Of a stretch of DNA of 12,851 bases, positions 1 to 12,712 are shown in pieces. The position numbers and the translations under genes were made by a program. Numbering within the stretch: position 1 is the stretch's first letter; each line of letters opens with the position of its first letter. The notes under the pieces were generated by a model. It saw only the letters and a program-made list of their open reading frames with translations. It was not told where the DNA came from and searched no databases. This DNA comes from Clostridiales bacterium (GTDB lineage: Bacteria > Bacillota_A > Clostridia > Oscillospirales > Oscillospiraceae): positions 1-12,851 of the forward strand of contig JALFGI010000151.1 in the NCBI GenBank assembly GCA_022777455.1, written 5' to 3'.

Positions 1-869
1 CCCAGAATATTGCCCATGCCGCCCAGCACCACGAAGACCAGAATGTTAATGGATGTATTGAAATTAAACTTGGCCGCATCCAGGGAGGAATAGTTCAGGC
101 CGTACAGCGCGCCTGCCATGCCCGCCAGGAAAGCGGAGACCACAAAGGCCTTCATCCGGAAGGAGGTGACATTGATGCCCACGGACTCGGCGGCAATACG
201 GTTGTCCCGCACGGCCTTGATGGCCCGGCCTTCCTTGGAGTTGATCAGGTTCAGCACCACGAACAGGGTGAACAGAATCAGGCCAAAGCCCACCGCGAAG
301 GTGGCAAGCTTTTTGATTCCGGTGACGCCCATAGCGCCGCTGAGAATCCACTTGCCCTTGCCCACCAGCTTGGGCTTGGCGGTGGCGATGGCGAAACGGA
401 AGCCGGATTCATCGGTGCCCACATACATGTTGCCGATGATGTTTTTCATGATTTCTCCGAAAGCCAGGGTCACAATGGCCAAATAATCGCCCCGGAGGCG
501 AAGCACGGGAATGCCGATGAGGAAACCCAGAAGTCCCGCCAGGGCGCCGCCGAAGATCATGGCAATCAGCAGCCGCAGCGTGGCGTTGTCCACGGTATCC
601 TTCAGCAGGGTTGCCAGCACCACGCCGGAGAAGGCGCCGATGCCCATGAAGCCCGCATGGCCCAGGCTCAGCTCACCGCAAACACCCACCAGCAGGTTCA
701 GGGAGACAGCCAGCACGATGTAGCAGCAAACAGGAACCAGATAGCCCTTTACGGCGCTGCTCAGCTTTCCCTGACCGAGCAGGGTCTGCATAATGATGAA
801 GGCCACAATCACCACCGCGTAGGTGATGAAATCCTTTCGTCTGTCTTTGCTCTGAAGTGTCTTTTTCAT
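1..869 (-). CDS. livM: Branched-chain amino acid ABC transporter permease LivM (3' end outside window)
   Basis: Inner-membrane permease that would pair with LivH to move leucine, isoleucine and valine across the cytoplasmic membrane, powered by LivG/LivF ATPases. Reading the minus strand from ATG 869 gives a continuous 289-codon frame to the window edge. It begins MKKTLQSKDRRKDF, then has hydrophobic segments, the LivM-type stretch GELSLGHAGFMGIGAF, and a later RDNRIAAESVGIN loop typical of the BPD_transp_2 family. The usual family length is about 300-350 residues, so only the extreme C-terminus is missing. ATG 869 is chosen because GAGGTG lies 7 nt upstream; an in-frame ATG at 875 is possible but too close to that site. 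The livH stop is 11 nt upstream, so this is one operon. livG and livF are expected just beyond position 1 but are not seen. Confidence 0.93.
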   Translation of the reverse strand, partial: MKKTLQSKDRRKDFITYAVVIVAFIIMQTLLGQGKLSSAVKGYLVPVCCYIVLAVSLNLLVGVCGELSLGHAGFMGIGAFSGVVLATLLKDTVDNATLRLLIAMIFGGALAGLLGFLIGIPVLRLRGDYLAIVTLAFGEIMKNIIGNMYVGTDESGFRFAIATAKPKLVGKGKWILSGAMGVTGIKKLATFAVGFGLILFTLFVVLNLINSKEGRAIKAVRDNRIAAESVGINVTSFRMKAFVVSAFLAGMAGALYGLNYSSLDAAKFNFNTSINILVFVVLGGMGNIL

Positions 870-880
870 GTTCATTCACC

Positions 881-1762
881 TCACACCTTCTCCTGCACCT
901 GCTTGCCCAGAAGGCCCGCGGGCTTCACAAGGAGGATGATAATCAGAACGCCGAACACAATGGCATCCGAAAATTGGGTGGACAGATATGCCTTGGCAAA
1001 GGTTTCAATGATGCCCAGCAGGATGCCGCCCAGCATGGCCCCGGGGATGGAGCCGATGCCGCCGAACACCGCCGCCGTGAAGGCGCGGATACCGGGCATG
1101 GAGCCGGTGGTGGGGGTCAGGGTGGGAATGGAGGAGCACATCAGCACACCGGCAATGGCAGCCAGGGCGGAGCCGATGGCAAAGGTAATGGAAATGGTGC
1201 GGTTGACGTTGATGCCCATGAGCTGAGCGGCGTCCCGGTCCTCGGACACGGCCCGCATGGACTTGCCGATCCTGGTGCTGCCGGTGAACCAGGTCAGGCC
1301 GATCATAATCACCACGGAGGCGACCACGGTGATGATGACTTCACCGGTGATGGTCAGGCTTCCGAACAGGTGGAAGGGCTGGATGTTGGAGACGATGCTG
1401 GTGAAGCTCTTGGGGTTGGAGGACCAGATCAGCTGGGCGGCGTTCTGCAGGAAATAGCTGACGCCGATGGCCGTGATCAGAACCGCCAGGCTGGGAGTGC
1501 CCCGCAGAGGCTTATAGGCCAGGCCCTCAATGGTGATGCCCAGCAAAGTACAAACCACCATGGATACCAGCACGCCCACCAGAGGGGGCATTCCCAGATA
1601 GTTGGTGACACAGTAGGAGATGTAGGCACCCACCATAATGACATCGCCGTGAGCGAAGTTCAGCATCTTGGCAATGCCGTAGACCATGGTATAACCCAGT
1701 GCAATGATGGCGTAAACAGAACCGATGCTGATTCCGTTTATAAAGTACTGGAGTATGTTCAT
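881..1762 (-). CDS. livH: Branched-chain amino acid ABC transporter permease LivH
   Basis: First permease subunit of the BCAA importer, acting in the cytoplasmic membrane with LivM. The 293-residue product matches the family length (about 290-310). It starts MNILQYFINGISIGSVYAI and carries the LivH hallmark LNFAHGDVIMVGAY at about residues 34-47 and the cytoplasmic loop RAVSEDRDAAQLMGINV, with 7-8 hydrophobic helices. The frame is open 7 codons further upstream, but ATG 1762 is preferred because AAGGAGG (1770-1776) lies 7 nt before it. It follows livJ after a 128-nt gap holding two RNA hairpins, and its stop is 11 nt before livM. Expression probably depends on read-through from livJ, since no clear promoter is visible in the gap. 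Confidence 0.95.
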   Translation of the reverse strand: MNILQYFINGISIGSVYAIIALGYTMVYGIAKMLNFAHGDVIMVGAYISYCVTNYLGMPPLVGVLVSMVVCTLLGITIEGLAYKPLRGTPSLAVLITAIGVSYFLQNAAQLIWSSNPKSFTSIVSNIQPFHLFGSLTITGEVIITVVASVVIMIGLTWFTGSTRIGKSMRAVSEDRDAAQLMGINVNRTISITFAIGSALAAIAGVLMCSSIPTLTPTTGSMPGIRAFTAAVFGGIGSIPGAMLGGILLGIIETFAKAYLSTQFSDAIVFGVLIIILLVKPAGLLGKQVQEKV

Positions 1763-1783
1763 CTTTCTTCCTCCTTGTTTCAA

Positions 1784-1826
1784 CGGTTGATAACAAACGC
1801 CGCAGTGCGGCAGCTCTTATCAACCG
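1784..1826 (-). promoter_or_regulatory. Nested hairpin in the livH leader
   Basis: A perfect 10-bp inverted repeat (CGGTTGATAA at 1784-1793 and TTATCAACCG at 1817-1826) encloses a second perfect 5-bp stem GCCGC/GCGGC (1799-1811, loop AGT). It sits between the livJ-livH terminator-like hairpin and the livH ribosome site, with its base 7 nt from the AAGGAGG. There is no U-tract, so it is not itself a terminator. It could protect the processed livH-livM RNA from 3'-5' decay, set translation, or be a protein-binding palindrome; the sequence does not decide. Confidence 0.6.
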
Positions 1827-1842
1827 CCGGGCATTTTTGCGG

Positions 1843-1871
1843 AAAAGGGGGAGGTGAGGCCTCCCCCTTTT
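1843..1871 (-). terminator. Intra-operon terminator/attenuator between livJ and livH
   Basis: A perfect 12-bp stem (AAAAGGGGGAGG at 1843-1854, CCTCCCCCTTTT at 1860-1871) with a 5-nt loop starts 19 nt after the livJ stop in the direction of transcription. The U-run on the RNA is only four bases and lies inside the stem, so termination is probably partial. A leaky terminator or 3'-protective stem-loop after a binding-protein gene commonly gives more binding protein than permease in ABC importer operons; that role is inferred here. Confidence 0.75.
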
Positions 1872-1890
1872 CTATTGGTAAAAATATGGA

Positions 1891-3027
1891 TTACTCAACG
1901 GAGACGTAAGCGCCGTCCTGAATCTTCACAACCGTGCCGGACTTGGAAACGAAGCCGTCCTCGTCCCAGGTCATGCCGCTGCCGGTGATGCCGTCGTAGG
2001 TCATGGAGGTGAACTGAGCGATCATAGCATCGCAGATGTCCTCAACGGACTCGGAGCCGTCGATGCCGGCAGCGGTAGCAGCCTGGTACATGGCCCAGAT
2101 CACGTCGTAGGCGTCGGCAGCGAACTGGTTGGGAACTTCGTTGTAGGCTTCCTTGTAGGCAGCCACGAAAGCGGCGGTGCGCTCGTCCTTGGAGTCAGCA
2201 GCGAAGGGAGTCAGCATGTGCAGGCCTTCGGCCAGGGAGGTGTCGAAGCCTTCCACGTCCAGGATGCCGTCCATGCCGTCCACGCCGAAGAACAGAGGAG
2301 CGTACCCAATCTTGCTGGCGGTGGTCAGAATCTGGGAAGCCTCGGTGTAGTAGATGGGCAGGAAGACCAGATCAGCGCCGGATTCCTTGCACTTGGTAAC
2401 CTGAGTGGTCAGGTCGGCCTTGGTGTCAGCGGTGAAAGCTTCGGTGCAGACAATTTCCAGGCCCTGAGTCTCAGCCTCTTCGGTGAAGCTCTCCAGGATG
2501 CCGGTGGAGTAAACATCGGAGGAATCGTAGATTACGCCGACCTTGGTGCCCAGACCCTTGGCGGTGATAACCTCAGCGGAAATCTTGCCCTGAGCGGGGT
2601 CGATGAAGCAGATCTGGAACACGTTGTCGCCGGTGTAGGCAACGTCAGCGGCGGAAGCGGAAGGAGTGACCATGAAGATGCGGTCAGCGTTGGCCTCGGG
2701 GCCGACAGCCAGGCAAGGCTTGGTGGTGACGGTGCCGCACATCATCTGCATGCCCCAGTCCTTCAGGGTGTTGTAAGCGGAGACGGCCTTCTCGGCGTCG
2801 TGCTCATCGTCCTGGCAGTTCAGTTCAAACTGCAGGCCGCCCAGAGCGTTGACTTCGTCAACAGCGATCTGTGCAGCGCGGGCAACAGCAGTGCCGTAAA
2901 CGGCAGCGCCGCCGGTCAGAGGACCGGACATACCGATCTTAATGGTGCCGGCATCGGCGGAAGCGCCGACGGCGAACATGGCTGTAACCATAGCGAGGGT
3001 CAGAACCAATGCGAGTAACTTTTTCAT
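1891..3027 (-). CDS. livJ: Branched-chain amino acid ABC transporter substrate-binding protein (LivJ/LivK family)
   Basis: Extracytoplasmic receptor that would capture leucine, isoleucine or valine and deliver it to LivH-LivM. The 378-residue product begins with a signal peptide (KK at 2-3, hydrophobic core 4-20, likely cleavage after the ASA at 22-24). The mature protein starts with the Peripla_BP_6 motif IKIGMSGPLTGGAAVYG and keeps the family pattern of AAQIAVDEVNALGG, the inter-lobe stretch VGVIYDSSDVYSTG and FFGVDGMDG. Start ATG 3027 has CTCCTTT on the plus strand (AAAGGAG in the RNA, 3037-3043) 9 nt upstream. Oddity: no cysteine occurs in or just after the signal peptide, so it is not a standard Gram-positive lipoprotein. 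The operon promoter, BCAA-rich leader ORF and terminator lie upstream. Ligand preference within hydrophobic amino acids cannot be read from sequence. Confidence 0.95.
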   Translation of the reverse strand: MKKLLALVLTLAMVTAMFAVGASADAGTIKIGMSGPLTGGAAVYGTAVARAAQIAVDEVNALGGLQFELNCQDDEHDAEKAVSAYNTLKDWGMQMMCGTVTTKPCLAVGPEANADRIFMVTPSASAADVAYTGDNVFQICFIDPAQGKISAEVITAKGLGTKVGVIYDSSDVYSTGILESFTEEAETQGLEIVCTEAFTADTKADLTTQVTKCKESGADLVFLPIYYTEASQILTTASKIGYAPLFFGVDGMDGILDVEGFDTSLAEGLHMLTPFAADSKDERTAAFVAAYKEAYNEVPNQFAADAYDVIWAMYQAATAAGIDGSESVEDICDAMIAQFTSMTYDGITGSGMTWDEDGFVSKSGTVVKIQDGAYVSVE

Positions 3028-3085
3028 TTTACGTTTCTCCTTTGTTGATTACTGAAAGCGCGGGAGAACGTCCCTCGCTTCCTAT

Positions 3086-3118
3086 AAAAAAGCGGTTACG
3101 GGGTTTGGACCGTAACCG
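3086..3118 (-). terminator. Attenuator terminator in the livJ leader
   Basis: On the transcribed strand a perfect 9-bp stem, CGGTTACGG/CCGTAACCG (plus-strand 3110-3118 and 3093-3101) with an 8-nt loop, is followed by CTTTTTT (3086-3092 reversed). This is a textbook intrinsic terminator lying between the leader ORF and livJ, 58 nt before the livJ start codon. The upstream arm can pair instead with the RNA segment CGTGACCG (plus 3143-3150), which overlaps the leader ORF stop codon. This gives an 8-bp antiterminator with one G-U pair. Terminator and antiterminator are mutually exclusive. Confidence 0.88.
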
Positions 3119-3122
3119 TTCT

Positions 3123-3138
3123 TTCATACGAACATGAA
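3123..3138 (-). promoter_or_regulatory. Small spacer hairpin within the liv antiterminator loop
   Basis: TTCAT/ATGAA (5 bp, 6-nt loop) lies exactly between antiterminator segment 3143-3150 and the terminator 5' arm 3111-3118. It would compact the intervening RNA and bring the two antiterminator strands together. Short and unproven on its own. Confidence 0.4.
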
Positions 3139-3145
3139 TTCCCGG

Positions 3146-3313
3146 TCACGCTGAAGGCAGAATAACTCGTACATCCAGTACAAGTACGCAAATGGACACT
3201 ACCAAATTGACGGCAGTGTCCAATAGGCTATGAATCCGGGCATCAAAGGAAGCCGCAGAGGCATTGCCGCTGCAGGAAAAAGACTGAAAACCGAAAGCAT
3301 TGCGAGTCGTCAT
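3146..3313 (-). CDS. BCAA-rich leader peptide of the liv operon (55 aa)
   Basis: Short ORF between the liv promoter and the attenuator terminator. ATG 3313 is preceded by a strong AAGGGGAGG site, 8 nt before the start. The 55-residue peptide starts MTTRNAFGFQ. Residues 1-26 hold no Leu, Ile or Val at all, whereas residues 27-52 hold 16 of them (I27, L30, L31, V35, L37, V38, V39, I41, V43, L44, V45, L46, V48, V50, I51, L52). The TGA stop (3146-3148) lies inside the antiterminator strand 3143-3150. Inferred role: ribosomes stalled on BCAA codons leave the antiterminator free and let livJ be transcribed; ribosomes that reach the stop mask it and the terminator forms. It is longer than enterobacterial ilv/leu leaders (about 28-32 aa). 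A small membrane peptide is the alternative, but D47 and R49 in the hydrophobic part and the RNA structure argue for a leader. Confidence 0.82.
   Translation of the reverse strand: MTTRNAFGFQSFSCSGNASAASFDARIHSLLDTAVNLVVSICVLVLDVRVILPSA
3193..3222 (-). promoter_or_regulatory. Hairpin inside the liv leader ORF (possible pause structure)
   Basis: A perfect 8-bp inverted repeat, TGGACACT (3193-3200) and AGTGTCCA (3215-3222) with a 14-nt loop, falls within leader codons 31-41. In attenuators an early hairpin often pauses RNA polymerase until the first ribosome catches up; that role is inferred. It does not overlap the antiterminator strand. Confidence 0.5.
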
Positions 3314-3343
3314 TTTCGTTTACCTCCCCTTGAATTTGTGCCT

Positions 3344-3372
3344 ATTGTATCTCATGGGAGGACATTTGTCAA
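3344..3372 (-). promoter_or_regulatory. Sigma-A promoter of the liv operon
   Basis: On the minus strand TTGACA (plus 3367-3372) is followed by a 17-nt spacer and TACAAT (plus 3344-3349), one mismatch from full consensus. Predicted transcription start is around 3337, giving a short 5' UTR before the leader-peptide ribosome site. A strong constitutive-type promoter fits an operon whose control is by attenuation downstream. Confidence 0.88.
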
Positions 3373-3375
3373 CGA

Positions 3376-3395
3376 GGAAAATACTACCATATTCC
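3376..3395 (-). promoter_or_regulatory. Imperfect palindrome just upstream of the liv -35 box
   Basis: A 20-bp dyad with arms GGAAAAT and ATATTCC and one mismatch per arm ends 4 bp from the -35 box. It is placed like an activator or repressor operator. It does not match the CodY consensus as I know it, and no regulator can be assigned. Confidence 0.3.
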
Positions 3396-3515
3396 CTTTG
3401 TAAAGATTTGAATTTTTGTGCAGAACCTACAAAGGTCCCTATCCCCATTCATTTCGCCCCAAAACGGCAAACCGTCATTGAGCGGCGAGTTGATTGACAC
3501 ACAGTTCGTCATTTC

Positions 3516-3670
3516 GTAGGGAACGGCCTGTGTGCCGTTCCAAGTCCTACGTAATTACCCTGTTTGGTTAAATGGTATTGGTGTTGGATCAATCTGCATG
3601 GGGCGGATGTTGTACCACTTTACGCAATGTGCAATGAACGGCGCGGAACGGCACATAGGCCGTTCCCTAC
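3516..3670. repeat. Small inverted-repeat element (MITE-like) between pbp and the liv promoter
   Basis: Two 26-bp ends, 3516-3541 and 3645-3670, are inverted copies of each other with a single mismatch. Each end starts GTAGGGAACGGCC and is itself a hairpin (GGAACGGC and GCCGTTCC arms, 6-nt loop). The total span is 155 bp with no credible ORF inside. Such structures are typical of non-autonomous palindromic repeats. The right end may also act as a 3' stem-loop for the minus-strand PBP gene, which stops 52 bp away, though no U-tract follows. The flanks 3396-3515 and 3671-3722 hold nothing recognisable. Confidence 0.7.
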
Positions 3671-3722
3671 AGATTCGTCCAACAAGTGTCCGTTCAACCC
3701 ATCGCAAAATTACAATCTGCTT

Positions 3723-5096
3723 TTATTCGGCATCCAGCACGGCCTTGCATTCGCTGAGGACGGTGGACAGGATGGGCACGCAGGTGGCCGCGCCGTAGCC
3801 GCCGTTTTCCACCACGCAGATGAAGGCCAGAGGGTACTTCTCATCCGCCACAAAGCCGGCGAACATGGCGTTGGAAATCTGGTCCTTGCCCAGCTCGGCA
3901 GTGCCGGACTTGCCGCAGACGGTGAGCCCCGGGAATTTCCAGGTGCCGTAGGTCACCTCCACGTTGTTGCGCAGGTAATTTTTCATCTGGCTGGCCAGGT
4001 TCTGGCTCATCACCCGGTCGGTGTAGGTGGTTTTGGCCTGGTAGGTTACTTCTCCGCCGCTTTCCACCCGCTCCACCAGGTAGGGCTGAGCCGCCACACC
4101 GCCCCCGGCGATCTGGCCCATGAAGGTCATAAAGCGGCAGGGGTTGACCAGGTCCGAATGCTGGCCGATGCAGCTCCAGGCAAAGGAGGCCGCGCCGGCA
4201 TCGGAGATGTCGTAATTACCGGCGGAGGTGGTGACTCCGTCGAAGCTGAGCTTCTGGGTGATCTGAAACTGTTCCACATATTTCTGCATGTTTTTCCGGC
4301 CCACCAGCTCCGCTACCTGGGCAAAGGCACAGTTGCAGGACACCGCCAGAGCCCGCTTCAGGTCGCAGCTTCCATGGGCCGCCTCACAGGTGATGGCCTC
4401 CTTGCCGTAGGCATACTCGCCGGAGCAGTAGAAGGTTTTGCTTTCTATCCCCGGCACGCATTCCAGGGCCGCGGCGCAGGTGACAATTTTGTAAATGGAG
4501 CCGGGGGGATAGGAGGACTGGAGAAACCGGTTCAGGTACACACCGGTGTAGGTGCCGGTGGTGTCCCCCTCGATGTCCGGCACATTGTCCGGGTCGTAGG
4601 TGGGGGAGGTGACGGCACAAAGGATCTCACCGGTTTTGTAATTGTACACCGCCACGGTGCCCTTCCGGCCCAGCAGTCCGTTCAGGGCCGCGTTCTGCAC
4701 CCGGGCAGACAGGGTCAGCTTCTCCACGCCCCCGGTGCCATCGGCATTGTACACACCGTCCACCAGGTCGTAGCCCACCATGGCGCTGGCATATTTGGCC
4801 ACGGCCCCGGCACTGATAAAGCCGCTGCGGTCGCCCACCCAATGGAGGGTGGATTTTCTGGTCTGGACATCGGAGGCGTATTGCCGCCCGTCGGTCAGGT
4901 CCAGCAGGGTGTTCCCCCACCGGTCCACCACGATACCGCAGCCCAGGTTGCCGTTGTTATATACATGGGGCGACCCGGCGGAAACCACCCAGGTGGAAGC
5001 CTGGGTCAGGTATTCAAACAGAAAAAATCCCATTCCTCCCAGCAAAACCGCCAGGAACAGACCCATCAGCCAGGTTCTTTTGGTAACACGATTCAT
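3723..5096 (-). CDS. Class B penicillin-binding protein (transpeptidase, PbpA/FtsI-type)
   Basis: D,D-transpeptidase that cross-links peptidoglycan outside the membrane. The 457-residue protein has a short cytoplasmic N-terminus, one membrane anchor (about 10-28), a compact N-terminal domain, and a transpeptidase domain with all three active-site motifs: S200-I-Y-K203 (in YPPGSIYK), S253-C-N255, and K396-S-G-T. There are no PASTA repeats. It is shorter than FtsI/SpoVD proteins (550-700 aa) and close in size and style to PbpA of actinobacteria. Its ATG overlaps the stop of the upstream SEDS gene (ATGA, 5093-5096), so the two are translationally coupled, matching the known SEDS polymerase-class B PBP partnership. 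The start is supported by an AAAGG about 10 nt upstream. Whether it serves septation, elongation or sporulation is not decided by sequence. Confidence 0.94.
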   Translation of the reverse strand: MNRVTKRTWLMGLFLAVLLGGMGFFLFEYLTQASTWVVSAGSPHVYNNGNLGCGIVVDRWGNTLLDLTDGRQYASDVQTRKSTLHWVGDRSGFISAGAVAKYASAMVGYDLVDGVYNADGTGGVEKLTLSARVQNAALNGLLGRKGTVAVYNYKTGEILCAVTSPTYDPDNVPDIEGDTTGTYTGVYLNRFLQSSYPPGSIYKIVTCAAALECVPGIESKTFYCSGEYAYGKEAITCEAAHGSCDLKRALAVSCNCAFAQVAELVGRKNMQKYVEQFQITQKLSFDGVTTSAGNYDISDAGAASFAWSCIGQHSDLVNPCRFMTFMGQIAGGGVAAQPYLVERVESGGEVTYQAKTTYTDRVMSQNLASQMKNYLRNNVEVTYGTWKFPGLTVCGKSGTAELGKDQISNAMFAGFVADEKYPLAFICVVENGGYGAATCVPILSTVLSECKAVLDAE

Positions 5097-6901
5097 TTTT
5101 TACGTACCTTTCTGCTCAGCTTCACGGCGAAGCTGGCGTTCTGCCGGGTATCCGCCGCTTTCACAAAGGCCAGCAGTCCCCAGGAGGCCACCATGCTGGT
5201 GCCGCCGTTGGAGACAAAGGGGAAGGTGACGCCCGTAAACGGCAGGATATCCACGGTGCCCAGCACATTCAGGATGGTTTGAATCAGCAAGATACCCGCC
5301 GCGGTGCAGGCGCCGATGCTGTAGAAGCTGCTCCGGGCAACCCGGGCCGTGCGGATGGCGAAGAAACCGAAGGCGCAGATGCACAACACCGCCATCATAG
5401 CCAGAAGCAGACCCCATTCCTCCGAAATGGTGGCAAACACAATGTCCGAGTCCGCCGCAAAGACCTTCCGCAGCCAACCCTTGCCCGCACCCACGCCGAA
5501 CAGGCCGCCGGAGGCGATGCACATCAGCGATTGAGCCTGCTGATAGCCCTTGTTGAAGGGGTCCTCCCAGACGTGCCGCCAGGTGGCGAACCGCTCCAGA
5601 GCATGGGGCGCCACCCGCAGGGCCAGAACACCGGCGATGCCCAGGGCGGTGATCGCCAGGGCCACGGTGCCCATGCTGCCGGAACGCAGATAGGCAATGA
5701 TCAGGAAAGAGCAGAAGAAAATCAGGGCCGTGCCGAAGTCATTCATAATGGCAAGGCAGGCGCAGATCATCACGGAATAGGCAATGAAGGCGATCAGGTT
5801 CCGCTTGTTCATGATTCTGTCCATGGTGGAAGCACCGGCAAACACGAAGCAGACCTTACTCAGTTCCGAGGGCTGCAAGGACACACCCCCCAGAATGATC
5901 CAGTTTTTCGCGCCGTAGTATTCCGTACCGAACACCAACGTCAGAATCAGAAAGCCCAATCCGGCCGCCACCGCCAGATACCGGACCCGCTTGGCCCGCT
6001 CCAGATTCCGCAGGGACATGCCCACCAGCAGGTAGACAAACACCCCCGCCAGCATGGCGATCAGCTGCTTCAGTGCCTCTTTGGGGGCCACCGTGGCAAT
6101 GGCGGCCATACCCAGGGTGCACAGGAAGAAGGCCAGCGTCTCCATCTCAAAGGAACTGCGGCGGATAACCAGATAGAAAATATACAGCAGCCACTGGGCC
6201 AGGATAATTCCGCTGAAGCCCTCCAGCACCAACACCGTATTCTCCACCGCGTTGTGCACGGCGAACCCCATCACCACCAGCACCTGGAAGGCGGTGAGCA
6301 GCAGCAGATTGAAAAGGGACGCGATGGGCCCGGAGGCTCTGGTGCGCAGCCGGGACTGGAGCTGCTCCTGCTGCCGGGTGATCACCTTCAGCTTCAGCTT
6401 CACCCCACCCACGGAGATCACGTCGCCGTCCTGGAGGGCACAGATATTCACCCGCTCGCCGTTGACGTAAGTGCCGTCCTTGGAATTGGCATCGGAGACG
6501 GTCCAGCTGCCGTCATCATACCGGGTCAGCACCGCGTGGTTCCGGGAGACGGTGGACAGGGCAATGGACACGTCACAGTTTTTACTCCGGCCGATGACGT
6601 TTTCCCAGTGGGTCACGGGCACCCGCTCTCCCCCGGGCATCACCAGCCAGGCCCAGATTTCCGGTTCCCGCCGGAAGGTAAGCAGGGGCATGGCGCAGCG
6701 AAGCAGCAGCAGCGCTGCCAGAATCGGGCAGCCATAGCGCACCATGGACATATAAAAGCTGCCATAGGCCCCGTCTATCTGGGAAAATGAGGCCGGGATT
6801 GCGGCAAGTCCCGTCTCCAGCCACTGGACCATCGGCTCCATCGCCTGTCCCAGCCCGGAGAAGAAGCCTGTGATTCCATTCAAAACTGATTGAAAATCCA
6901 T
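5093..6901 (-). CDS. FHA-domain fused SEDS-family peptidoglycan polymerase (FtsW/RodA/SpoVE-like)
   Basis: Predicted lipid II polymerase fused to a phosphothreonine-reading domain (602 residues). N-terminal part: a helix around 57-76, then an FHA domain at about 100-172 with the expected residues GRS (104-106), SRNH (119-122) and KDGTYVNG (141-148). C-terminal part from about 195: around ten membrane helices with SEDS motifs GGVSLQPSELSKV (338-350), NDFGTALIFF (387-396), the loop with GVGAGKGW and TISEEWG, and LPFTGVTFPFVSNGGTS (553-569). ATG 6901 is chosen because the frame further up begins only at a TTG inside a hairpin; AAAGGGGG lies about 12 nt upstream, a long spacing. It follows nfo by 95 nt and overlaps the PBP gene. 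FHA fusion suggests control by a Ser/Thr kinase (PknB/PrkC type), none of which is in the window. Confidence 0.93.
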   Translation of the reverse strand: MDFQSVLNGITGFFSGLGQAMEPMVQWLETGLAAIPASFSQIDGAYGSFYMSMVRYGCPILAALLLLRCAMPLLTFRREPEIWAWLVMPGGERVPVTHWENVIGRSKNCDVSIALSTVSRNHAVLTRYDDGSWTVSDANSKDGTYVNGERVNICALQDGDVISVGGVKLKLKVITRQQEQLQSRLRTRASGPIASLFNLLLLTAFQVLVVMGFAVHNAVENTVLVLEGFSGIILAQWLLYIFYLVIRRSSFEMETLAFFLCTLGMAAIATVAPKEALKQLIAMLAGVFVYLLVGMSLRNLERAKRVRYLAVAAGLGFLILTLVFGTEYYGAKNWIILGGVSLQPSELSKVCFVFAGASTMDRIMNKRNLIAFIAYSVMICACLAIMNDFGTALIFFCSFLIIAYLRSGSMGTVALAITALGIAGVLALRVAPHALERFATWRHVWEDPFNKGYQQAQSLMCIASGGLFGVGAGKGWLRKVFAADSDIVFATISEEWGLLLAMMAVLCICAFGFFAIRTARVARSSFYSIGACTAAGILLIQTILNVLGTVDILPFTGVTFPFVSNGGTSMVASWGLLAFVKAADTRQNASFAVKLSRKVRKK

Positions 6902-6941
6902 TCTGGGGATATTCCCCCTTTCAAAGGAACTTGATGATAGC

Positions 6942-6967
6942 TTGACACAGAGAAGGCCCCGTGTCAA
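6942..6967 (-). other. Strong hairpin between nfo and the FHA-SEDS gene
   Basis: TTGACAC (6942-6948) and GTGTCAA (6961-6967) form a perfect 7-bp stem that extends to 11 bp with G-U pairs around a 4-nt loop. There is no U-tract, so it is not a clean terminator. The TTGACA it contains has no acceptable -10 box at normal spacing. It may modulate read-through or mRNA stability between the two genes. Confidence 0.45.
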
Positions 6968-6996
6968 CTTAAATTTTTATTATGAATATTGCGCCG

Positions 6997-7821
6997 TCAC
7001 TTCTCCAGCGCCCGCAGGGCGGCGATTTCCTTTGCGTAGCCCGGCAGCTCGTTGGGCGTTTCCAGGATCATGGGCAGTCCCTTCAGCGCGGGGTGGTTGA
7101 CGATGTTCTCAAAGGTATCCATCCCCAGGCTGCCCAGGCCGATGCACTCGTGCCGGTCCTTATGGCTGCGGAAGGGATTCTTGGAATCGTTCAGATGGAG
7201 GGCTTTCAGCCGGTCCAGGCCGATGACCCGGTCAAATTCCGCCAGCACTCCATCCAGGTCACTGACAATGTCGTAGCCCGCATCGTAAACATGGCAGGTA
7301 TCCAGGCACACGCCCACCTGATCTGAACCCACGGCGTCCAGGATCTGCTTCAGCTCCTCAAACCGGCCGCCCACCTCGCTTCCCTTGCCAGCCATGGTTT
7401 CCAGCAGAACGGTGACGGGATAGCCCGGTTCCAGCGCCCGGCGCAGAGCAGCGGAAATGTACTCGATTCCCTGGGCTGTCCCCTGGCCGGTGTGGCTGCC
7501 GGGGTGGAAATTATAGAAATTCCCGGGCAGCGCCCCCATGCGGCGCAGATCATCCAGCAGTACATCGGCAGCGAAGGCTCTGGCCTCCGCTTCTGCGGTA
7601 CACAGGTTCATGGTGTAGGCTCCGTGGGCAACCAGCGGGCCAAAGCCGCGCTCCCGCAGCAGCTCCATGGCCCGGGCAGCATCCTGGGGATTCTCCTGCT
7701 TGGCCCGGCTGCCCCGAGGATTCCGGGTGAAAAAGGCAAAGGTATCCGCTCCGATGGAGCAGGCGGTTTCCACCATGGCGGCGAACCCCGCCGAGGCGGA
7801 CAGATGGCAGCCAAGATACAT
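6997..7821 (-). CDS. nfo: Endonuclease IV (AP endonuclease)
   Basis: Cleaves the backbone 5' of abasic sites and removes 3' blocking groups during base-excision repair in the cytoplasm. The 274-residue TIM barrel is the normal family length (about 280). The metal-binding residues of the family can be traced: H66 (VAHGAY), H106/H110 (NFHPGSH), E141 (LLETMAG), D174 and H177 (CLDTCHVYDAGYD), H209 (LHLND), D222 and H224 (KDRHE), and E254 (LETP). The frame is open to 7944, but ATG 7821 is used because MYLGCHLSAS matches the family start and GGAGG lies 10 nt upstream. It is the first gene of a minus-strand run with the FHA-SEDS and PBP genes, possibly one transcript, although the functions are unrelated. 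Confidence 0.95.
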   Translation of the reverse strand: MYLGCHLSASAGFAAMVETACSIGADTFAFFTRNPRGSRAKQENPQDAARAMELLRERGFGPLVAHGAYTMNLCTAEAEARAFAADVLLDDLRRMGALPGNFYNFHPGSHTGQGTAQGIEYISAALRRALEPGYPVTVLLETMAGKGSEVGGRFEELKQILDAVGSDQVGVCLDTCHVYDAGYDIVSDLDGVLAEFDRVIGLDRLKALHLNDSKNPFRSHKDRHECIGLGSLGMDTFENIVNHPALKGLPMILETPNELPGYAKEIAALRALEK

Positions 7822-7852
7822 GATTTTCGTTCCTCCGCAATTCGTTTTGCTC

Positions 7853-7881
7853 ATGCTATCACATTTGAAGTAAAAAAGCAA
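7853..7881 (-). promoter_or_regulatory. Likely sigma-A promoter of nfo
   Basis: On the minus strand TTGCTT (plus 7876-7881), a 17-nt spacer, then TAGCAT (plus 7853-7858) preceded by TG at the extended -10 position. Start of transcription would be near 7846, about 25 nt before the nfo start codon. This also excludes the longer N-terminal frame. Confidence 0.6.
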
Positions 7882-7949
7882 ATTAACATGTCCCAAATTC
7901 CAAAAACTGTGATAAAATAGGACGCGTACGCAGGGTTCAGTCATCAGAT

Positions 7950-8145
7950 AAATGGTTGTTTAGCGCCCTTGGCTCTCCCTTTGGGAGAGCTGTCAGCCGA
8001 ACAGGCTGACTGAGAGGGTAGCGCAGTAAGGCAATGGCAACTGAAATCCATGTATTGCCCTCTCAGTCTGCCCCTATGGGGCAGCCAGCTCCCCCATAGG
8101 GGGAGCCAAGAGGGGTGTCGGTTCCGGTACGCGAAACAACAATTT
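7950..8145. repeat. MITE-like element, copy 1
   Basis: A 196-bp non-coding element with imperfect terminal inverted repeats: AAATGGTTGTTTAGCG at the left and the inverse of AAATTGTTGTTTCGCG at the right. TA lies at both outer edges. Inside is a 66-nt block nearly identical to copy 2 (12529-12595), with a perfect hairpin GCTCTCCC/GGGAGAGC (7972-7990), a CAGCC/GGCTG hairpin, and distant complementary pairs (CCTTGGCTC with GAGCCAAG; ACTGAGAGGG with CCCTCTCAGT). The whole folds into a branched cruciform. It fills most of the gap between the divergent nfo and WYL genes. Confidence 0.8.
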
Positions 8146-8178
8146 ATCGGTCAAATCCATCAAAAGCAGGAGGCTGCC

Positions 8179-9159
8179 ATGGCAAAGACAGACAATCAGA
8201 AGCTGAAAATTCTCTACATCCTGGATTACCTGCAAAAAAACTCCCACCAGGACAAGCCGGTGAGAGCCAACGAATTGATTTCCATGCTGGATCGGCTGGG
8301 CATCAGCTGTAACCGGAAAACCATTTATTCCGACATTGCCGCCCTTCAGGAGTTCGGGGTGGACATCGTGCACCTGCCCGGCCGGAACGGAGGCTATTAC
8401 GTGGCCTCCCGGAATTTCCAGCTGCCGGAGCTGAAGCTGCTCATCGACGCGGTGCAGTCCAGCCGGTTCCTCACGGAGAAAAAGTCCCGGGAACTGATCG
8501 AGAAGCTGTGCAGCCAGTGCAACGAGCAGGATGCCAGGCTGATGCGCCGGGATGTTTACGTCTCCGGCCGGGTCAAGAGCATGAACGAAACCATTTATTA
8601 TAGTGTGGATGCCATTCAGGAGGCCATCGCCCAGAACAAACAGATCACCTTCCGCTATTTCGACTGGGGCCTGAACGGAACCCGGGTCTACCGCCAGAAA
8701 AGCTACACCGCCAGTCCCTACGGCCTGTGCCAGGACAACGAAAACTGCTACCTGCTGGCCCTGTCCCCCCGGCACGGCATCACCAGCTACCGGGTGGATC
8801 GGATGAGCGACATTGAACTGGCGCAGGAGCCCCGGGTCCCCTGCCCGGAGCTCGCCGGAAGGAATCTGACGGAATACGCAAATCGGATGTTTCAGATGTA
8901 CTCCGGCGACCGGGTATCGGTAAAGCTCCGGTTCCGCCGGGAGCTTGCCAACGTGGTCATCGACCGGTTCGGCAAGGACACCATGCTGTTCCCCGATGGA
9001 GAGGAGCACTTCGTATTCACCGTGGAAGTGGCCGTGTCCCCCCTGTTCCTCAGCTGGGTCATGGGCTTCGGGGACAAGGCCCAGATCCTCTACCCCCAAA
9101 GCGTGGTGGAGGAATGCAAAAAAATGGCCCGCCAGGTACTGGAACAGTACGGCGGGTGA
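8179..9159 (+). CDS. WYL-domain transcriptional regulator (YafY/DeoR-like HTH)
   Basis: Predicted DNA-binding regulator of 326 residues, the usual size for this family. The N-terminal winged HTH spans about 8-75 (ILDYLQK, RKTIYSDIAALQEFG as recognition helix region, then the wing GRNGGYYVASR). A middle helical segment runs to about 140, and a WYL domain covers about 150-220 (ITFRYFDWGLNG, SPYGLCQDNENCYLLAL, SYRVDRMSDIEL), followed by a C-terminal WCX-type extension to 326. The eponymous W-Y-L reads C-Y-L here. The frame continues upstream through the MITE-like element, but ATG 8179 has AGGAGG (8168-8173) 5 nt before it and begins MAKTDNQKLKIL. Targets and ligand are unknown; the neighbours do not point to one pathway. 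It ends 6 bp from the convergent lipoprotein gene. Confidence 0.9.
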   Translation: MAKTDNQKLKILYILDYLQKNSHQDKPVRANELISMLDRLGISCNRKTIYSDIAALQEFGVDIVHLPGRNGGYYVASRNFQLPELKLLIDAVQSSRFLTEKKSRELIEKLCSQCNEQDARLMRRDVYVSGRVKSMNETIYYSVDAIQEAIAQNKQITFRYFDWGLNGTRVYRQKSYTASPYGLCQDNENCYLLALSPRHGITSYRVDRMSDIELAQEPRVPCPELAGRNLTEYANRMFQMYSGDRVSVKLRFRRELANVVIDRFGKDTMLFPDGEEHFVFTVEVAVSPLFLSWVMGFGDKAQILYPQSVVEECKKMARQVLEQYGG

Positions 9160-9165
9160 AGGAAA

Positions 9166-9654
9166 TCAGGAAAGCTGGAAGGTGTTGAACACCTCGCTCC
9201 AGATGATCTGGCAGTCGTCATCGTCGGCGTCCTGCAGCACGGTCAGACAGTAGTGGTAGTTTCCGTCATCCAGCACCACCCCACGGCCTACCCGTTCTCC
9301 GGCTTCTCCGGCAGCGGCCCAGGCAAATTCCCAGCGCTGGGGCGCTTCCGCCCGGGTCTGGATCAGGGTGATGTCCTCCCGGTCAAAGCCGGTGAGTTCC
9401 CGGATCGTGGAGTCCAGGTCACCGCCGGTGAGGGTCTGTACCATCACCTCATACCCATCCCCGAAGTAAAGCCGCCCGGTGTCACTTTCCATGGCACAGG
9501 CCACCGCCTCCCCAGGCAGCTCCAGCCGGACTTCTCTGGGCGCAGCCACCGCGACGGGCTCCTCCCACACATCTGCCACGGTTTCCGCCGCCTCCACCTG
9601 GCCGCACCCCGCCAGCAGCAGGGCGGCCAGAAGTATCAATCCAATTTTCTTCAA
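9166..9654 (-). CDS. Small uncharacterised lipoprotein (TTG start)
   Basis: I do not recognise this 162-residue protein. It has a clear lipoprotein signal: KK at 2-3, hydrophobic core 4-14, lipobox L14-A-G-C17. The mature part is acidic, with a linker to about residue 45, then a mixed alpha/beta region (REVRLELPGEAVACAMES, YEVMVQTLTGGDLDSTIRELTG, RGVVLDDGNYHYCLTVL) and a run of aspartates before the end. The frame is open to 9723, but the signal peptide and a GGAGG 7 nt upstream fix the start at TTG 9654. It is tail to tail with the WYL regulator (6-bp gap) and separated by an 80-nt hairpin from the divergent DUF1294 gene. Expected on the outer face of the membrane; function unknown. Confidence 0.8.
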   Translation of the reverse strand: MKKIGLILLAALLLAGCGQVEAAETVADVWEEPVAVAAPREVRLELPGEAVACAMESDTGRLYFGDGYEVMVQTLTGGDLDSTIRELTGFDREDITLIQTRAEAPQRWEFAWAAAGEAGERVGRGVVLDDGNYHYCLTVLQDADDDDCQIIWSEVFNTFQLS

Positions 9655-9676
9655 AAGAACACCTCCAGAAAGGATT

Positions 9677-9756
9677 GGCGACCTCAAAAAACTACTTTTT
9701 GCGGTTTTGGGCAAGTGATCCACCCAAACCCAAAAAGGGGCGTTTTCAGAGGTGCC
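9677..9756. repeat. 80-nt near-complete palindrome (MITE-like or structured leader)
   Basis: The two halves pair along almost the whole length: GGC(G)ACCTC with GAGGTGCC at the ends, AAAAC with GTTTT, CTTTTTG with CAAAAAG, and GGTTTTGGG with CCCAAACC around a loop of about 11 nt, roughly 28 pairs in all. GATT occurs directly on both sides (9673-9676 and 9758-9761), like a target-site duplication. It sits between the start codons of the divergent lipoprotein and DUF1294 genes, with no recognisable promoter left over in the gap. Confidence 0.65.
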
Positions 9757-9764
9757 CGATTGCC

Positions 9765-10049
9765 ATGAGAACCGTTTTCCTTTTCTATCTGCTTACAATC
9801 AATGCAGTAGGCTGCCTGATTATGCTTGTTGACAAGCAAAAGGCCCGAAAAAACCTTTGGCGCATCCCGGAAGCCACCCTGCTCACCGTCGCCATACTGG
9901 GCGGCAGCGTGGGATGCCTTGTCGGAATGCGCCTGTTTCGCCATAAAACCAGGAAGCCCAAATTCTATATTGGAATTCCGGTGATTCTGGCCATGCAGCT
10001 GATTTTGAGCGGTTACATTCTGACAAAAGCAATCACTCCGCCCATGTGA
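9765..10049 (+). CDS. DUF1294 family small membrane protein
   Basis: A 94-residue integral membrane protein matching the DUF1294 family pattern: an N-terminal helix (about 3-22), the loop DKQKARKNLWRIPE (23-36), a second helix with LGGSVGCLVGM, the conserved LFRHKTRKPKFY (58-68), and a final helix (about 70-88). Family function is not established. ATG 9765 is the first ATG fitting the family start; the open frame extends further up only through the 80-nt palindrome. The GAGGTG upstream is part of that palindrome and lies about 11 nt away, so translation may be affected by it. A hairpin (10072-10090) follows the stop, and the next gene has its own promoter. Confidence 0.88.
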   Translation: MRTVFLFYLLTINAVGCLIMLVDKQKARKNLWRIPEATLLTVAILGGSVGCLVGMRLFRHKTRKPKFYIGIPVILAMQLILSGYILTKAITPPM

Positions 10050-10071
10050 TGATTCAAATACGCCCATTGCA

Positions 10072-10090
10072 AGGGAGGAACACCCTCCCT
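10072..10090 (+). other. Hairpin downstream of the DUF1294 gene
   Basis: AGGGAGG/CCTCCCT, a perfect 7-bp stem with a 5-nt loop, begins 22 nt after the stop. There is no U-tract, so rho-independent termination is doubtful; it may be a 3' stabiliser or remnant of a palindromic repeat. The rest of 10091-10137 shows nothing. Confidence 0.4.
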
Positions 10091-10137
10091 ACGCTGGGAA
10101 TGAACCATGCTTCATTCAGCCATGTGCCGGAAAAGGC

Positions 10138-10166
10138 TTGACATTCTTTGCATTTGCTGATACAAT
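10138..10166 (+). promoter_or_regulatory. Sigma-A promoter of the CDF transporter gene
   Basis: TTGACA (10138-10143), exactly 17 nt, then TACAAT (10161-10166) with an extended TG just upstream. The predicted start is near 10173, so the transcript carries a leader of about 160 nt containing the metal aptamer and terminator. Confidence 0.88.
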
Positions 10167-10189
10167 CCTAACTAATTTACCCCTGTAAA

Positions 10190-10267
10190 GGGGCATATCT
10201 GAACAGACCGGGGCATTCTGCCCGGAGTCGGGTCACATCCGTGACAGTGGTTTACCACGGGACAGTC
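10190..10267 (+). ncRNA. NiCo (czcD-motif) riboswitch aptamer
   Basis: The leader contains the four-way junction pattern of the NiCo/czcD riboswitch as I know it. CTGAACAGAC (10199-10208) matches the conserved CUGAnCAGnC strand. It is followed by P2 (CCGGGGCA/TGCCCGG, 10208-10225), the AGTCGGGTC junction strand, P3 (GTCAC/GTGAC, 10232-10245), P4 (GTGG/CCAC, 10247-10258), and GGGACAGTC (10259-10267), which is the family's signature 3' strand. P1 is weak beyond CTG/CAG. The gene downstream is a CDF exporter, the standard partner of this class. The class binds Co2+ and Ni2+, and Fe2+ has also been proposed as ligand. Identification is by memory of conserved strands, not by a covariance-model search. 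Confidence 0.8.
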
Positions 10268-10297
10268 AATTCATTTGCTGCTCCGGGGTATTTTTTT
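10253..10297 (+). terminator. Riboswitch expression-platform terminator
   Basis: TACCACGGGACAG (10253-10265) pairs with CTGCTCCGGGGTA (10278-10290), 13 positions with two mismatches and one G-U, followed directly by seven T (10291-10297). Its 5' arm consumes the conserved GGGACAG strand and half of P4 of the aptamer, so folding of the metal-bound aptamer should block termination (an ON switch). GGGGCA at 10190-10195 can also pair with TGCTCC at 10279-10284, a possible additional antiterminator. Confidence 0.82.
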
Positions 10298-10333
10298 ACC
10301 CTTGAGCGGCCTTCAACAACAAGGAGGCCTCCC

Positions 10334-11491
10334 ATGACAAATCTGCTATTGCGCCTGTTCGTCCCCCATTTTAGCGAACACACCCCCGCCGTCCACGCTG
10401 CCATCGGCAAGCTGGCGGGCATCGTCGGCATCGTGTGTAACGTGCTGCTCTCGTGCATGAAAATTGTTGTCGGTTTACTCACCGGCTCCGTAGCCATCAC
10501 CGGCGACGGCATCAATAACCTCACCGACTCCGCTTCCTCCCTGGTAACCCTGCTGGGCTTCCGCATGGCCCAGCGCCCGGCGGACGGGGAGCACCCCTTC
10601 GGTCACGGGCGTTACGAGTACATCTCCGGGGTGGTGGTGGCTGCCCTGGTGCTGCTGGCGGGAGCGGAACTGGCAAAATCCTCTTTTGAGAAAATCCTGC
10701 ACCCCCAGTCCGTTCCCTTCACCGCTTCCACGCTGGTGGTCCTGCTGGTTTCCATCGGCGTGAAGCTGTGGATGGCCGGGTTCAACCGAAAGCTGGGCAG
10801 GCTCACCGGCTCCAAGACCCTGGAGGCCACCGCCCAGGACAGCCGCAACGACGTGATCGCCACCTCCACCGTGGTGGTGAGCTTCCTGGCGGATGCCATC
10901 TTCCGCATCCGGCTGGATGGCTACGTGGGCATGGGCGTAGCCCTGTTCATCCTCTGGTCCGGCATTTCCCTGGCAAAAAGCACGGTGGACCCCCTGATCG
11001 GCATGCAGGCAGATGAGGAAATGGTGCACCAGCTGACGGACCTGATCCTGGCCCATGAGCGCATTATGGGTATCCACGATCTGCTGATCCACGACTACGG
11101 TCCCGGCCACTGCTTTGCCACGGTCCACGCGGAAATGAACGCCGGGGAAAGCCCCCTGGATGCCCACGACCAGTTGGATCACATTGAGCAGGAGGCCCTG
11201 CGCCGGCTGGGCATCCACCTGGTGATCCACTATGACCCCATTGCCGAAAACGAGGACTGGAACGCCTGCCGCAACCTGGCGGAAACCTGTGCCGCCGGGC
11301 TCAGCCCCGACGCCTCCATCCACGACCTGCGCATCGTGGACTATCAGGAGCAGAAAAAGCTCACCTTCGACCTGGCAGTGCCCTATTCCCTGCCCCTGTC
11401 CGACGAGGCGCTGGTCCAGCGGATGCTGGATGCCCTGAAGGAAAAAGGGTGTTTTCTTCCCACGGAAATCCAGATTGACCGGCACGACTGA
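10334..11491 (+). CDS. Cation diffusion facilitator (CDF) family metal exporter with duplicated C-terminal domain
   Basis: Proton-driven divalent metal exporter of the cytoplasmic membrane, 385 residues. Six helices span about 25-215, with the TM2 metal motif in GDGINNLTDSASS (N61-x3-D65) and the TM5 motif AQDSRND (D169-x3-D173). The PFGHGRYEYI loop after TM2 is typical. The cytoplasmic part holds two related ferredoxin-like units: about 225-302 (from GIHDLLIHDYG to HLVIHYDP) and about 315-383 (from SIHDLRIVDYQ to TEIQIDRHD). Usual CDFs end near residue 300 with one unit. ATG 10334 is chosen over the longer frame because AAGGAGG (10321-10327) is 6 nt upstream and the riboswitch lies before it. 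The N-D/D-D site resembles manganese exporters of the MntE type, whereas the riboswitch argues for Co/Ni/Fe; the substrate is therefore open. Confidence 0.93.
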   Translation: MTNLLLRLFVPHFSEHTPAVHAAIGKLAGIVGIVCNVLLSCMKIVVGLLTGSVAITGDGINNLTDSASSLVTLLGFRMAQRPADGEHPFGHGRYEYISGVVVAALVLLAGAELAKSSFEKILHPQSVPFTASTLVVLLVSIGVKLWMAGFNRKLGRLTGSKTLEATAQDSRNDVIATSTVVVSFLADAIFRIRLDGYVGMGVALFILWSGISLAKSTVDPLIGMQADEEMVHQLTDLILAHERIMGIHDLLIHDYGPGHCFATVHAEMNAGESPLDAHDQLDHIEQEALRRLGIHLVIHYDPIAENEDWNACRNLAETCAAGLSPDASIHDLRIVDYQEQKKLTFDLAVPYSLPLSDEALVQRMLDALKEKGCFLPTEIQIDRHD

Positions 11492-11531
11492 TGGTTTCAA
11501 AAAGTGCCAAAATCCCCCAACACTAATGCAC

Positions 11532-11566
11532 AAAGGTGCCCTGTCCATCTGACAGAGCACCTTTTT
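11532..11566. terminator. Bidirectional terminator between convergent genes
   Basis: AAAGGTGC plus CTGTC (11532-11545) pair with GACAG plus GCACCTTT (11551-11564) around a 5-nt loop with one C/A mismatch, followed by T to 11566 on the plus strand. On the minus strand the stem is followed by the shorter TTT. It lies 40 bp after the CDF stop and 15 bp after the end of the convergent membrane-protein gene. Confidence 0.85.
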
Positions 11567-11580
11567 CCTTTGTATTATTC

Positions 11581-12393: not shown

Positions 12394-12434
12394 TCGGATA
12401 CCTCCTGACCACATGTTTTTAACGGATATTTTAC

Positions 12435-12462
12435 ATTATACCACTCTTTGTTTAAGGGTCAA
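12435..12462 (-). promoter_or_regulatory. Sigma-A promoter of the membrane-protein gene
   Basis: On the minus strand TTGACC (plus 12457-12462), a 16-nt spacer, then a perfect TATAAT (plus 12435-12440). Predicted start near 12428, about 35 nt before the start codon at 12393. Confidence 0.82.
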
Positions 12463-12466
12463 GTTT

Positions 12467-12491
12467 TTTCGCAGAGATCCTCTTTGCGAAA
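12467..12491. promoter_or_regulatory. Palindrome immediately upstream of the membrane-protein promoter
   Basis: TTTCGC-AGAG (12467-12476) and CTCT-TT-GCGAAA (12480-12491) form a 10-bp dyad with a 2-nt bulge and 3-nt loop, starting 5 bp above the -35 box. No T-tract lies on the useful side for termination. Its position suits an operator, but no regulator is evident. Confidence 0.4.
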
Positions 12492-12500
12492 CAAACACAT

Positions 12501-12695
12501 AAATTGTAATTTGCGGGCAGATACGGCAGCGCCCCTTGGCTCTCCCTTTGGGAGAGCTGTCAGCCGAACAGGCTGACTGAGAGGGTACCGCAGTTAGATA
12601 ATAGCAGCCGAAATCACGCCATGCTGGCCCTCTCAGTCTGCCCCATAGGGGGAGCCAAGGGATGCAGTCGGTTCCGGTGCGCTAAATTACAATTT
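12501..12695. repeat. MITE-like element, copy 2
   Basis: A 195-bp element in the same orientation as copy 1 (7950-8145) and nearly the same length. Terminal repeats: AAATTGTAATTTGCG at the left and the exact inverse of AAATTGTAATTT at the right (12684-12695). The inner block 12529-12595 is almost identical to that in copy 1, with the same GCTCTCCC/GGGAGAGC hairpin (12539-12557), while the middle part 12596-12630 has diverged. No coding capacity. It fills the gap between the membrane-protein promoter and the 3' end of the next minus-strand gene. Confidence 0.8.
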
Positions 12696-12712
12696 TCCAT
12701 CCGGAAAAATCG

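Follow-up and report, generated by a model that had tools for sequence, protein, structure and literature searches.

The 12,851-nucleotide stretch of a Clostridiales bacterium contig analysed here (JALFGI010000151.1, positions 1 to 12,851; hereafter the window) carries on its reverse strand the genes of a branched-chain amino acid (BCAA) importer: livJ for a BCAA-type substrate-binding protein with a Peripla_BP_6 domain (3027-1891), and livH (1783-881) and livM (875-3, open at the window edge) for two permeases, each with a BPD_transp_2 domain. Upstream of livJ on the same strand are a sigma-70-type promoter with 11 of 12 consensus matches (TTGACA, 17 nt, TACAAT; 3372-3344), a ribosome-binding site (GGGGAGG, 3329-3323) and a leader ORF of 55 codons plus stop (3313-3146). 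The promoter hexamers also occur in L009 and are readable in the sequences of L001, L002 and L010 (numbers of this form designate loci that were compared with the window). Beyond the leader promoter, between it and a penicillin-binding-protein gene, there is a 26-nt inverted repeat (3516-3541 and 3645-3670; 96% complementary, 103 nt apart) that resembles a small mobile element or a REP-type element. Elsewhere in the window, an FtsW/RodA-type protein with an N-terminal FHA domain is encoded next to a transpeptidase gene (6967-5093, reverse strand), and a NiCo riboswitch that scores above its gathering threshold (10189-10267, forward strand) overlaps the start of a cation-efflux ORF (10241-11491), so the true start codon of that ORF is probably further downstream.

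Codons 1 to 26 of the leader (3313-3236) contain no Leu, Ile or Val, whereas codons 27 to 52 (3235-3158) contain 16 (hypergeometric P 2e-6). An intrinsic terminator with its U-tract (3118-3086) begins 27 nt past the leader stop codon, as a 9-bp perfect stem followed by C and T6 (3118-3093). Eight base pairs, one of them G-U, can form between CGTGACCG (3150-3143), spanning the leader stop codon, and CGGTTACG in the 5' arm of the terminator (3118-3111); these terminator bases double as the 3' strand of the putative antiterminator. As in attenuators of this class, a short ORF with its own ribosome-binding site lies between the promoter and the first gene, and the control codons suit the operon, 16 of the 55 codons being for Leu, Ile or Val ahead of livJHM. 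The initial annotation had described the promoter, the ORF and its ribosome site, the skewed codon content, the terminator, the competing helix and the livJHM genes that follow, all as they are found here, and had overlooked one element, a hairpin inside the leader ORF (H0).

Leaders of the same layout occur in relatives. Among close livJ homologues from 52 genome contigs, nine are preceded by a BCAA-rich leader, in genomes labelled Oscillospiraceae bacterium, Oscillibacter, Candidatus Faecousia and uncultured Clostridia. A strict detector (ribosome-binding site, 40 to 120 residues, BCAA-poor start, dense BCAA block, and a strong terminator no more than 50 nt past the stop) was run on both strands of these 52 loci, and its ten matches in 413,404 base-strands were the nine livJ leaders and one spurious match (L018), so the leader design exceeds chance. 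In a second, livJ-centred sample, for which 62 of 101 searched genomes had a livJ match, 13 of 50 upstream regions held a leader (two of the regions being shorter than 300 nt; both strands, density cut-off of 9 of 20). The distribution is thus patchy, at 9 of 52 and 13 of 50 livJ loci. In all, 41 leaders were tabulated with that of the window included, 33 first and 8 later; their genomes are of Oscillospiraceae type or, in a few cases, belong to more distant clostridia, and since some leaders are mutually close, counts over the 41 are not counts of independent sequences. The leaders are 50 to 106 residues long with a mean column identity of 23%. Alignment A6 holds 27 of the 33 leaders, with the near-duplicates L027, L029, L071, L072 and L076 and the diverged L090 left out, and alignment A5 holds 10 of 12, L029 and L117 being left out. 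Alignment of leader N-termini (A7) shows a loose Ala/Ser/Cys-rich motif (for example DA..APSCSSA) in the BCAA-poor part across distant leaders. A tmRNA gene (2294-2641, reverse strand) lies just upstream of the leader-livJ unit at L065.

A profile of the leader peptide was also compared with whole genomes regardless of neighbouring genes. At the cut-offs used, matches were obtained in 4 of 394, 6 of 150, 17 of 400, 3 of 391, 11 of 101 and 13 of 394 genomes, in sets that overlap; the matches were false in two of the 4, one of the 6 and two of the 17 genomes, and one true genome among the 17 has a second, false place in addition. The 13 matches of the second 394-genome set comprised seven leaders, one rejected match (L162) and five that were left unclassified in that set (L163 to L167), of which L163 is the same place in genome G150 as the rejected L063. 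Weak matches judged not to be leaders were L060, L061, L063, L064, L068, L084, L085, L086 and L162; L066 and L067 are true leaders, recorded as L074 and L149. In a protein database, where scoring covered the 7995 candidates with the most words in common, the profile matched at least 255 proteins at E of 0.01 or less. Among the 120 of these that were listed, none had a Pfam domain and four were named, all as hypothetical proteins of Oscillibacter.

The genes that follow the leaders found by leader-only searches provide the best evidence that BCAA are the signal, the link to BCAA genes having played no part in the search. Of the first 21 such leaders, 18 precede a livJ-type binding-protein gene, two (L138, L139) precede operons for a branched-chain aminotransferase and a 2-ketoisovalerate-type oxidoreductase, and one (L151) precedes a pair of genes of the lactate permease and dehydrogenase families. 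The gene runs at L138 and L139 encode an amidohydrolase, a branched-chain aminotransferase (above its curated cut-off), VorB of 3-methyl-2-oxobutanoate dehydrogenase (also above cut-off) and AMP-binding enzymes of acyl-CoA-ligase type; one of the two runs also holds a LeuA-like protein, with a LeuA_dimer domain and scores below the LeuA cut-offs, and the other also holds beta and gamma subunits of the oxidoreductase. The same leader cassette stands before amidohydrolase, branched-chain aminotransferase and 2-ketoisovalerate-type oxidoreductase genes at L138, L139, L152 and L153, in genomes spread class-wide. At L151 and L154 the leader is the second of its genome, another one standing before livJ, and the genes behind it, a lactate-permease-family transporter and a lactate/malate-dehydrogenase-family enzyme, were assigned by Pfam and fall below NCBIfam cut-offs; they may act on branched 2-hydroxyacids.

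The codon content of the leaders is strongly polarised. In 33 leaders, Leu, Ile and Val make up 97 of 1201 residues (8%) before H0 and 636 of 1383 (46%) from H0 onward. The choice among synonymous codons is biased as well: the Val codon GTA accounts for 26 of 44 in eight leaders versus 6 of 212 in eight livJ genes (Fisher p 2e-18), and the Ile codon ATT for 51 of 56 versus 28 of 183 (Fisher p 8e-26), so that these control codons are the Val and Ile codons that livJ avoids. For Leu, the frequent codon CTG predominates in the control region, and GC3 is also lower in the other leader codons than in livJ (0.59 vs 0.80).

The start of an intrinsic terminator lies 6 to 47 nt past the leader stop codon in 41 of 41 leaders (33 of 33 and 8 of 8), and a terminator score cut-off of 34 is passed by 32 of 33 real sequences and by 0 of 660 shuffled ones. 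Within the last 260 nt before livJ, a strong terminator was found in 18 of 22 regions with a leader versus 9 of 80 without, these regions having been drawn from two locus sets that overlap in a few genomes, and three of the nine leaderless cases (L037, L044, L092) having been counted from the scan alone. At L099, L127 and, with a lower score, L123, a promoter-proximal terminator stands upstream of livJ with no leader ORF; that of L099 resembles the terminator of the leader-bearing L097. These three are possibly leader losses or other livJ attenuators, and they limit the range of the attenuator system. At L101, L115, L116 and L122 the terminator belongs to an upstream gene. L134, left out of the 41 leaders, has upstream of livJ a leader-like ORF with a BCAA-poor start and an H0-like hairpin, a stop codon directly after that hairpin, and a weak stem and T-run further down; it is perhaps a decaying leader.

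The competing antiterminator is conserved in relatives, more weakly over all 33 leaders than within groups of them. In the group of nine leaders to which the window belongs, a strand at the stop codon (for example CGTAACCG, ACCGCTTTTT, AACCGCTTA or GGCCGCT, each with its partner) pairs with the terminator 5' arm over 7 to 10 bp, and the mean longest helix of 8.2 bp (six of the nine leaders being distinct) was reached by 0 of 1000 shuffles. Partners swapped between species often pair too, over 4 to 10 bp, which limits the co-change seen in this group. Leaders of the Oscillibacter group have a longer antiterminator, an interrupted helix that encloses a small hairpin at the stop codon, with 83.9% of cells paired versus 25 to 53% when the strands are slid; there are few compensatory changes, and neither double-change pairs nor new pair types beat shuffles in this group (93 and 375 of 500 shuffles, respectively). 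A contiguous-helix test on all 33 leaders gave a modest difference, 15.4 versus 13.8 for shuffles (sd 0.43) and 14.2 for swapped partners. In a fold model, the probability that upstream RNA holds the terminator 5' arm was lower with the ribosome at the stop codon than with the ribosome stalled, by more than 0.1 in 33 of 33 leaders and by 0.61 on average; the model itself contributes to this result, because more RNA is free when the ribosome is stalled. In L078, L083 and L109 the model left the arm still held (above 0.5) with the ribosome at the stop codon. When each leader was compared with its own shuffles, the held state was above the shuffled mean in 32 of 33 and reached the 95% level in 20 of 33; L001, L010, L088 and L136 did not stand out, and L133 went in the opposite direction. 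A ribosome model that allowed RNA to pair across the ribosome was uninformative and was replaced.

The initial annotation had proposed to look for joint recurrence in relatives of the ORF, its BCAA bias, the antiterminator at the stop codon and the terminator; these do recur together, which supports its reading of the window leader as an attenuator. It had also named a kept terminator with a missing ORF as refuting, and a few loci show this pattern (L099, L123 and L127), L099 lowering the odds slightly. On balance, ribosome-mediated attenuation is well supported by the sequence comparisons. With the ORF, its codon bias, the H0 pairing, the antiterminator and the terminator each backed by comparison among relatives, the leader is very probably a transcription attenuator that would sense charged Leu-, Ile- and Val-tRNA and control livJHM. 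The sensing of tRNA, the way the leader responds and what H0 does are inferred as follows. The ribosome would load and cross codons 1 to 26 as on a runway; as these contain no Leu, Ile or Val, it could reach the control region despite BCAA starvation. If all three tRNAs are charged, it would proceed to the leader stop codon and cover the 5' strand of the antiterminator, and the terminator would form. If Leu-, Ile- or Val-tRNA is short, the ribosome would stall within codons 27 to 52 and leave the stop region free, the antiterminator would form, and transcription would continue into livJHM. At H0, the end of the runway, RNA polymerase would most likely pause, or terminate where a U-tract follows as in most relatives, until the leading ribosome arrives and melts the hairpin, and this release would let ribosome and polymerase start the control region together.

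In the window, H0 is an in-frame palindrome, TGGACACTGCCG..TGGTAGTGTCCA (3222-3193), with a 12-bp stem and a 6-nt loop (z -5.6). The best hairpin within the ORF falls at this place in 32 of 33 leaders, L090 being diverged, and in 7 of the 8 later ones; in L149 H0 is not the top hairpin, and in L091 it was picked by hand as the second best. It sits at the border between the BCAA-poor start and the BCAA-rich part, after 28 to 45 codons with few Leu, Ile or Val, and ahead of most Leu, Ile and Val codons in 33 of 33 tabulated leaders. In 27 sequences, 96.6% of H0 pair cells are standard pairs versus at most 53% in slid versions, and 6 of 10 pairs have changed on both sides, which 9 of 500 shuffles reach; the percentage paired and the strong covariation are reached by 0 of 500, and a count of new pair types alone is no better than in shuffles (77 of 500). 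The 153 arm cells include 13 G-U and one A-C (17 distinct arm pairs of 33, the misanchored L090 among them), and the distance between the arms varies in multiples of three in 32 of 33 leaders. The G-U pairing together with this spacing indicates that both an RNA hairpin and the reading frame have been kept. Consensus folding also suggested hairpins within the runway, which were weak and are not claimed.

The role of H0 may be to pause RNA polymerase and nothing more, keeping it in step with the ribosome within a single attenuator. We give this reading about an even chance. A pause hairpin melted by the ribosome has been described for attenuation of the trp/his type (PMC1183508), and the position of H0 ahead of most Leu, Ile and Val codons in 33 of 33 leaders also speaks for it. 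Against it, the U-tract that follows H0 in most leaders is left unexplained by a pause alone: at least 5 T occur in the 8 nt after H0 in 37 of 41 leaders versus 70 of 1065 windows of the same phase later in the ORFs, and T makes up 113 of 160 third bases versus 83 expected from amino-acid-matched rates, so the U-richness goes beyond what the choice of amino acids explains. Nor do the leaders consistently share a pyrimidine-G pause step at any one distance behind H0, the best distance having it in 14 of 37.

The U-tract suggests that H0 could instead terminate transcription within the leader gene unless a ribosome follows closely; this is less likely than not, though a real possibility. The attenuator of Escherichia coli pyrBI senses UTP through the speed of RNA polymerase. 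Its terminator also lies in the region of a leader ORF and does not act when the ribosome keeps close to the polymerase: a translating ribosome suppresses the pyrL terminator (PMC5021804). A U-tract after a hairpin within the ORF, the corresponding feature, is present in the 37 leaders above and weak in the window, and a generic terminator scan picked out H0 as terminator-like in each of three relatives (L009, L129, L065), all that were tried. It did not call H0 in the window, which is one of four U-tract exceptions: its flank (3192-3183, beginning TTTGCGTA) has 4 T of 8, and that of L001, another exception, has 3 T, although the H0 stems of both are strong (-19.7 kcal/mol in the window and -21.8 in L001). 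The terminator reading is further weakened in that the U-richness follows in part from Ile, Phe and Leu codons, and a pause hairpin would look alike. Both readings of H0, pause and terminator, lie within the main attenuator explanation.

An extended form of the attenuator explanation, which we put forward tentatively, places two attenuators in series in one leader gene. The H0/U-tract gate would abort or hold transcription unless a ribosome has crossed the BCAA-poor runway, and at the second step, of the ilv type, read-through would require a stall of that ribosome at Leu, Ile or Val codons. Such a gate would be ON for BCAA shortage and OFF for a general block of translation or a shortage of other amino acids, and it would form a BCAA-regulon module serving importer, aminotransferase-ketoacid oxidoreductase and hydroxyacid permease-dehydrogenase genes in Oscillospiraceae and relatives. 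The pyrBI leader, unlike this two-step arrangement, has no second attenuator that reads an amino acid.

Outside the attenuator explanation, the leader ORF might encode a functional small hydrophobic protein, with the terminator incidental. Some copies are indeed annotated as hypothetical proteins in Oscillibacter, and the leaders form a recognisable sequence family; the idea is nonetheless improbable given their wide range of length and low mean column identity, an Asp that is invariant in a 12-row alignment and falls in the H0 palindrome, the terminator close behind the stop codon in every one of the 41, and the use of precisely those Val and Ile codons that livJ avoids. That H0, a dyad, is a DNA operator for a repressor is very unlikely, since its arms pair through G-U in 13 cells and A-C in one of 153, as fits RNA of the sense strand, their spacing varies in steps of three in 32 of 33 leaders, and their sequence differs among species with compensating changes. 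As for other RNA classes in Rfam, no T-box was found in the window at E values up to 1, nor at the gathering threshold in L002-L041 and in 20 leader loci. Termite-leu (RF01730), whose hairpins and spacing resemble the terminator region of the window, was rejected at 28.8 bits versus a gathering threshold of 51. A second hairpin between the terminator and the livJ ribosome-binding site of the window (3082-3054, reverse strand) contributes to this weak match and is absent in the nearest relative, L001, whose LivJ is 93% identical.

Enterobacterial ilv and leu attenuators combine a leader peptide rich in BCAA with biased control codons and with an antiterminator and a terminator that exclude each other. 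The clostridial leader resembles those of ilvGMEDA, ilvBN and leuABCD in these three respects. It differs in standing before an importer, in the 28 to 45 BCAA-poor codons that precede H0, in having both arms of H0 within the ORF and ahead of most control codons, and in placing the 5' strand of the antiterminator at the stop codon. PMC6123439 gives the sizes of the enterobacterial ilv/leu leader peptides. According to PMC5794164, PMC5864092, PMC6123439, PMC10272879 and PMC11857589, ilv attenuation is established in enterobacteria, has been demonstrated experimentally in Staphylococcus aureus, Listeria monocytogenes and Corynebacterium glutamicum, and is predicted for Lactococcus and Streptococcus. 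Ribosome-mediated BCAA attenuation has been tested experimentally on the ilv operons of S. aureus and L. monocytogenes (PMC5794164, PMC5864092, PMC6123439); as described there, these attenuators (Rli60 in Listeria, with a leader of 13 residues) control a biosynthetic operon, whereas the clostridial case is an importer. The Corynebacterium ilvB-II motif (ilvBNC) likewise has an RNA stem over a BCAA-rich upstream ORF followed by a terminator (PMC10272879, PMC11857589), but the ORF is usually of 15 to 17 residues, and the hairpin over its start region, H1, is a competitor of the antiterminator. The clostridial H0, unlike H1, lies clear of the antiterminator.

Firmicutes are usually described as users of T-boxes and CodY for BCAA control. 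In Clostridia, T-boxes are reported on BCAA synthesis genes and on some LIVCS transporters (PMC2494555), and a 2010 survey presented leader peptides in Firmicutes as new (PMC2965389). No livJ attenuator and no report of this leader family was found among the matches listed in a search of open-access titles and the starts of abstracts. The suggestion in the initial annotation that such control had not been described in clostridia stands, among the matches listed, for the importer and the lineage and has to be narrowed otherwise, BCAA leader attenuation being already known in S. aureus and L. monocytogenes; attenuation itself is thus not new to Firmicutes, and the novelty would lie in a leader family that spans the lineage, stands before an importer and has an additional hairpin built in.

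Long leader attenuators on a BCAA importer would explain how BCAA are sensed in common gut bacteria, and through the leader family a set of "hypothetical proteins" would be recognised as regulatory leaders. Should H0 be a terminator relieved by translation, one short gene would compute a two-input decision, and such a gate, if true, would offer a direct test of the use of transcription-translation coupling in Gram-positive anaerobes.
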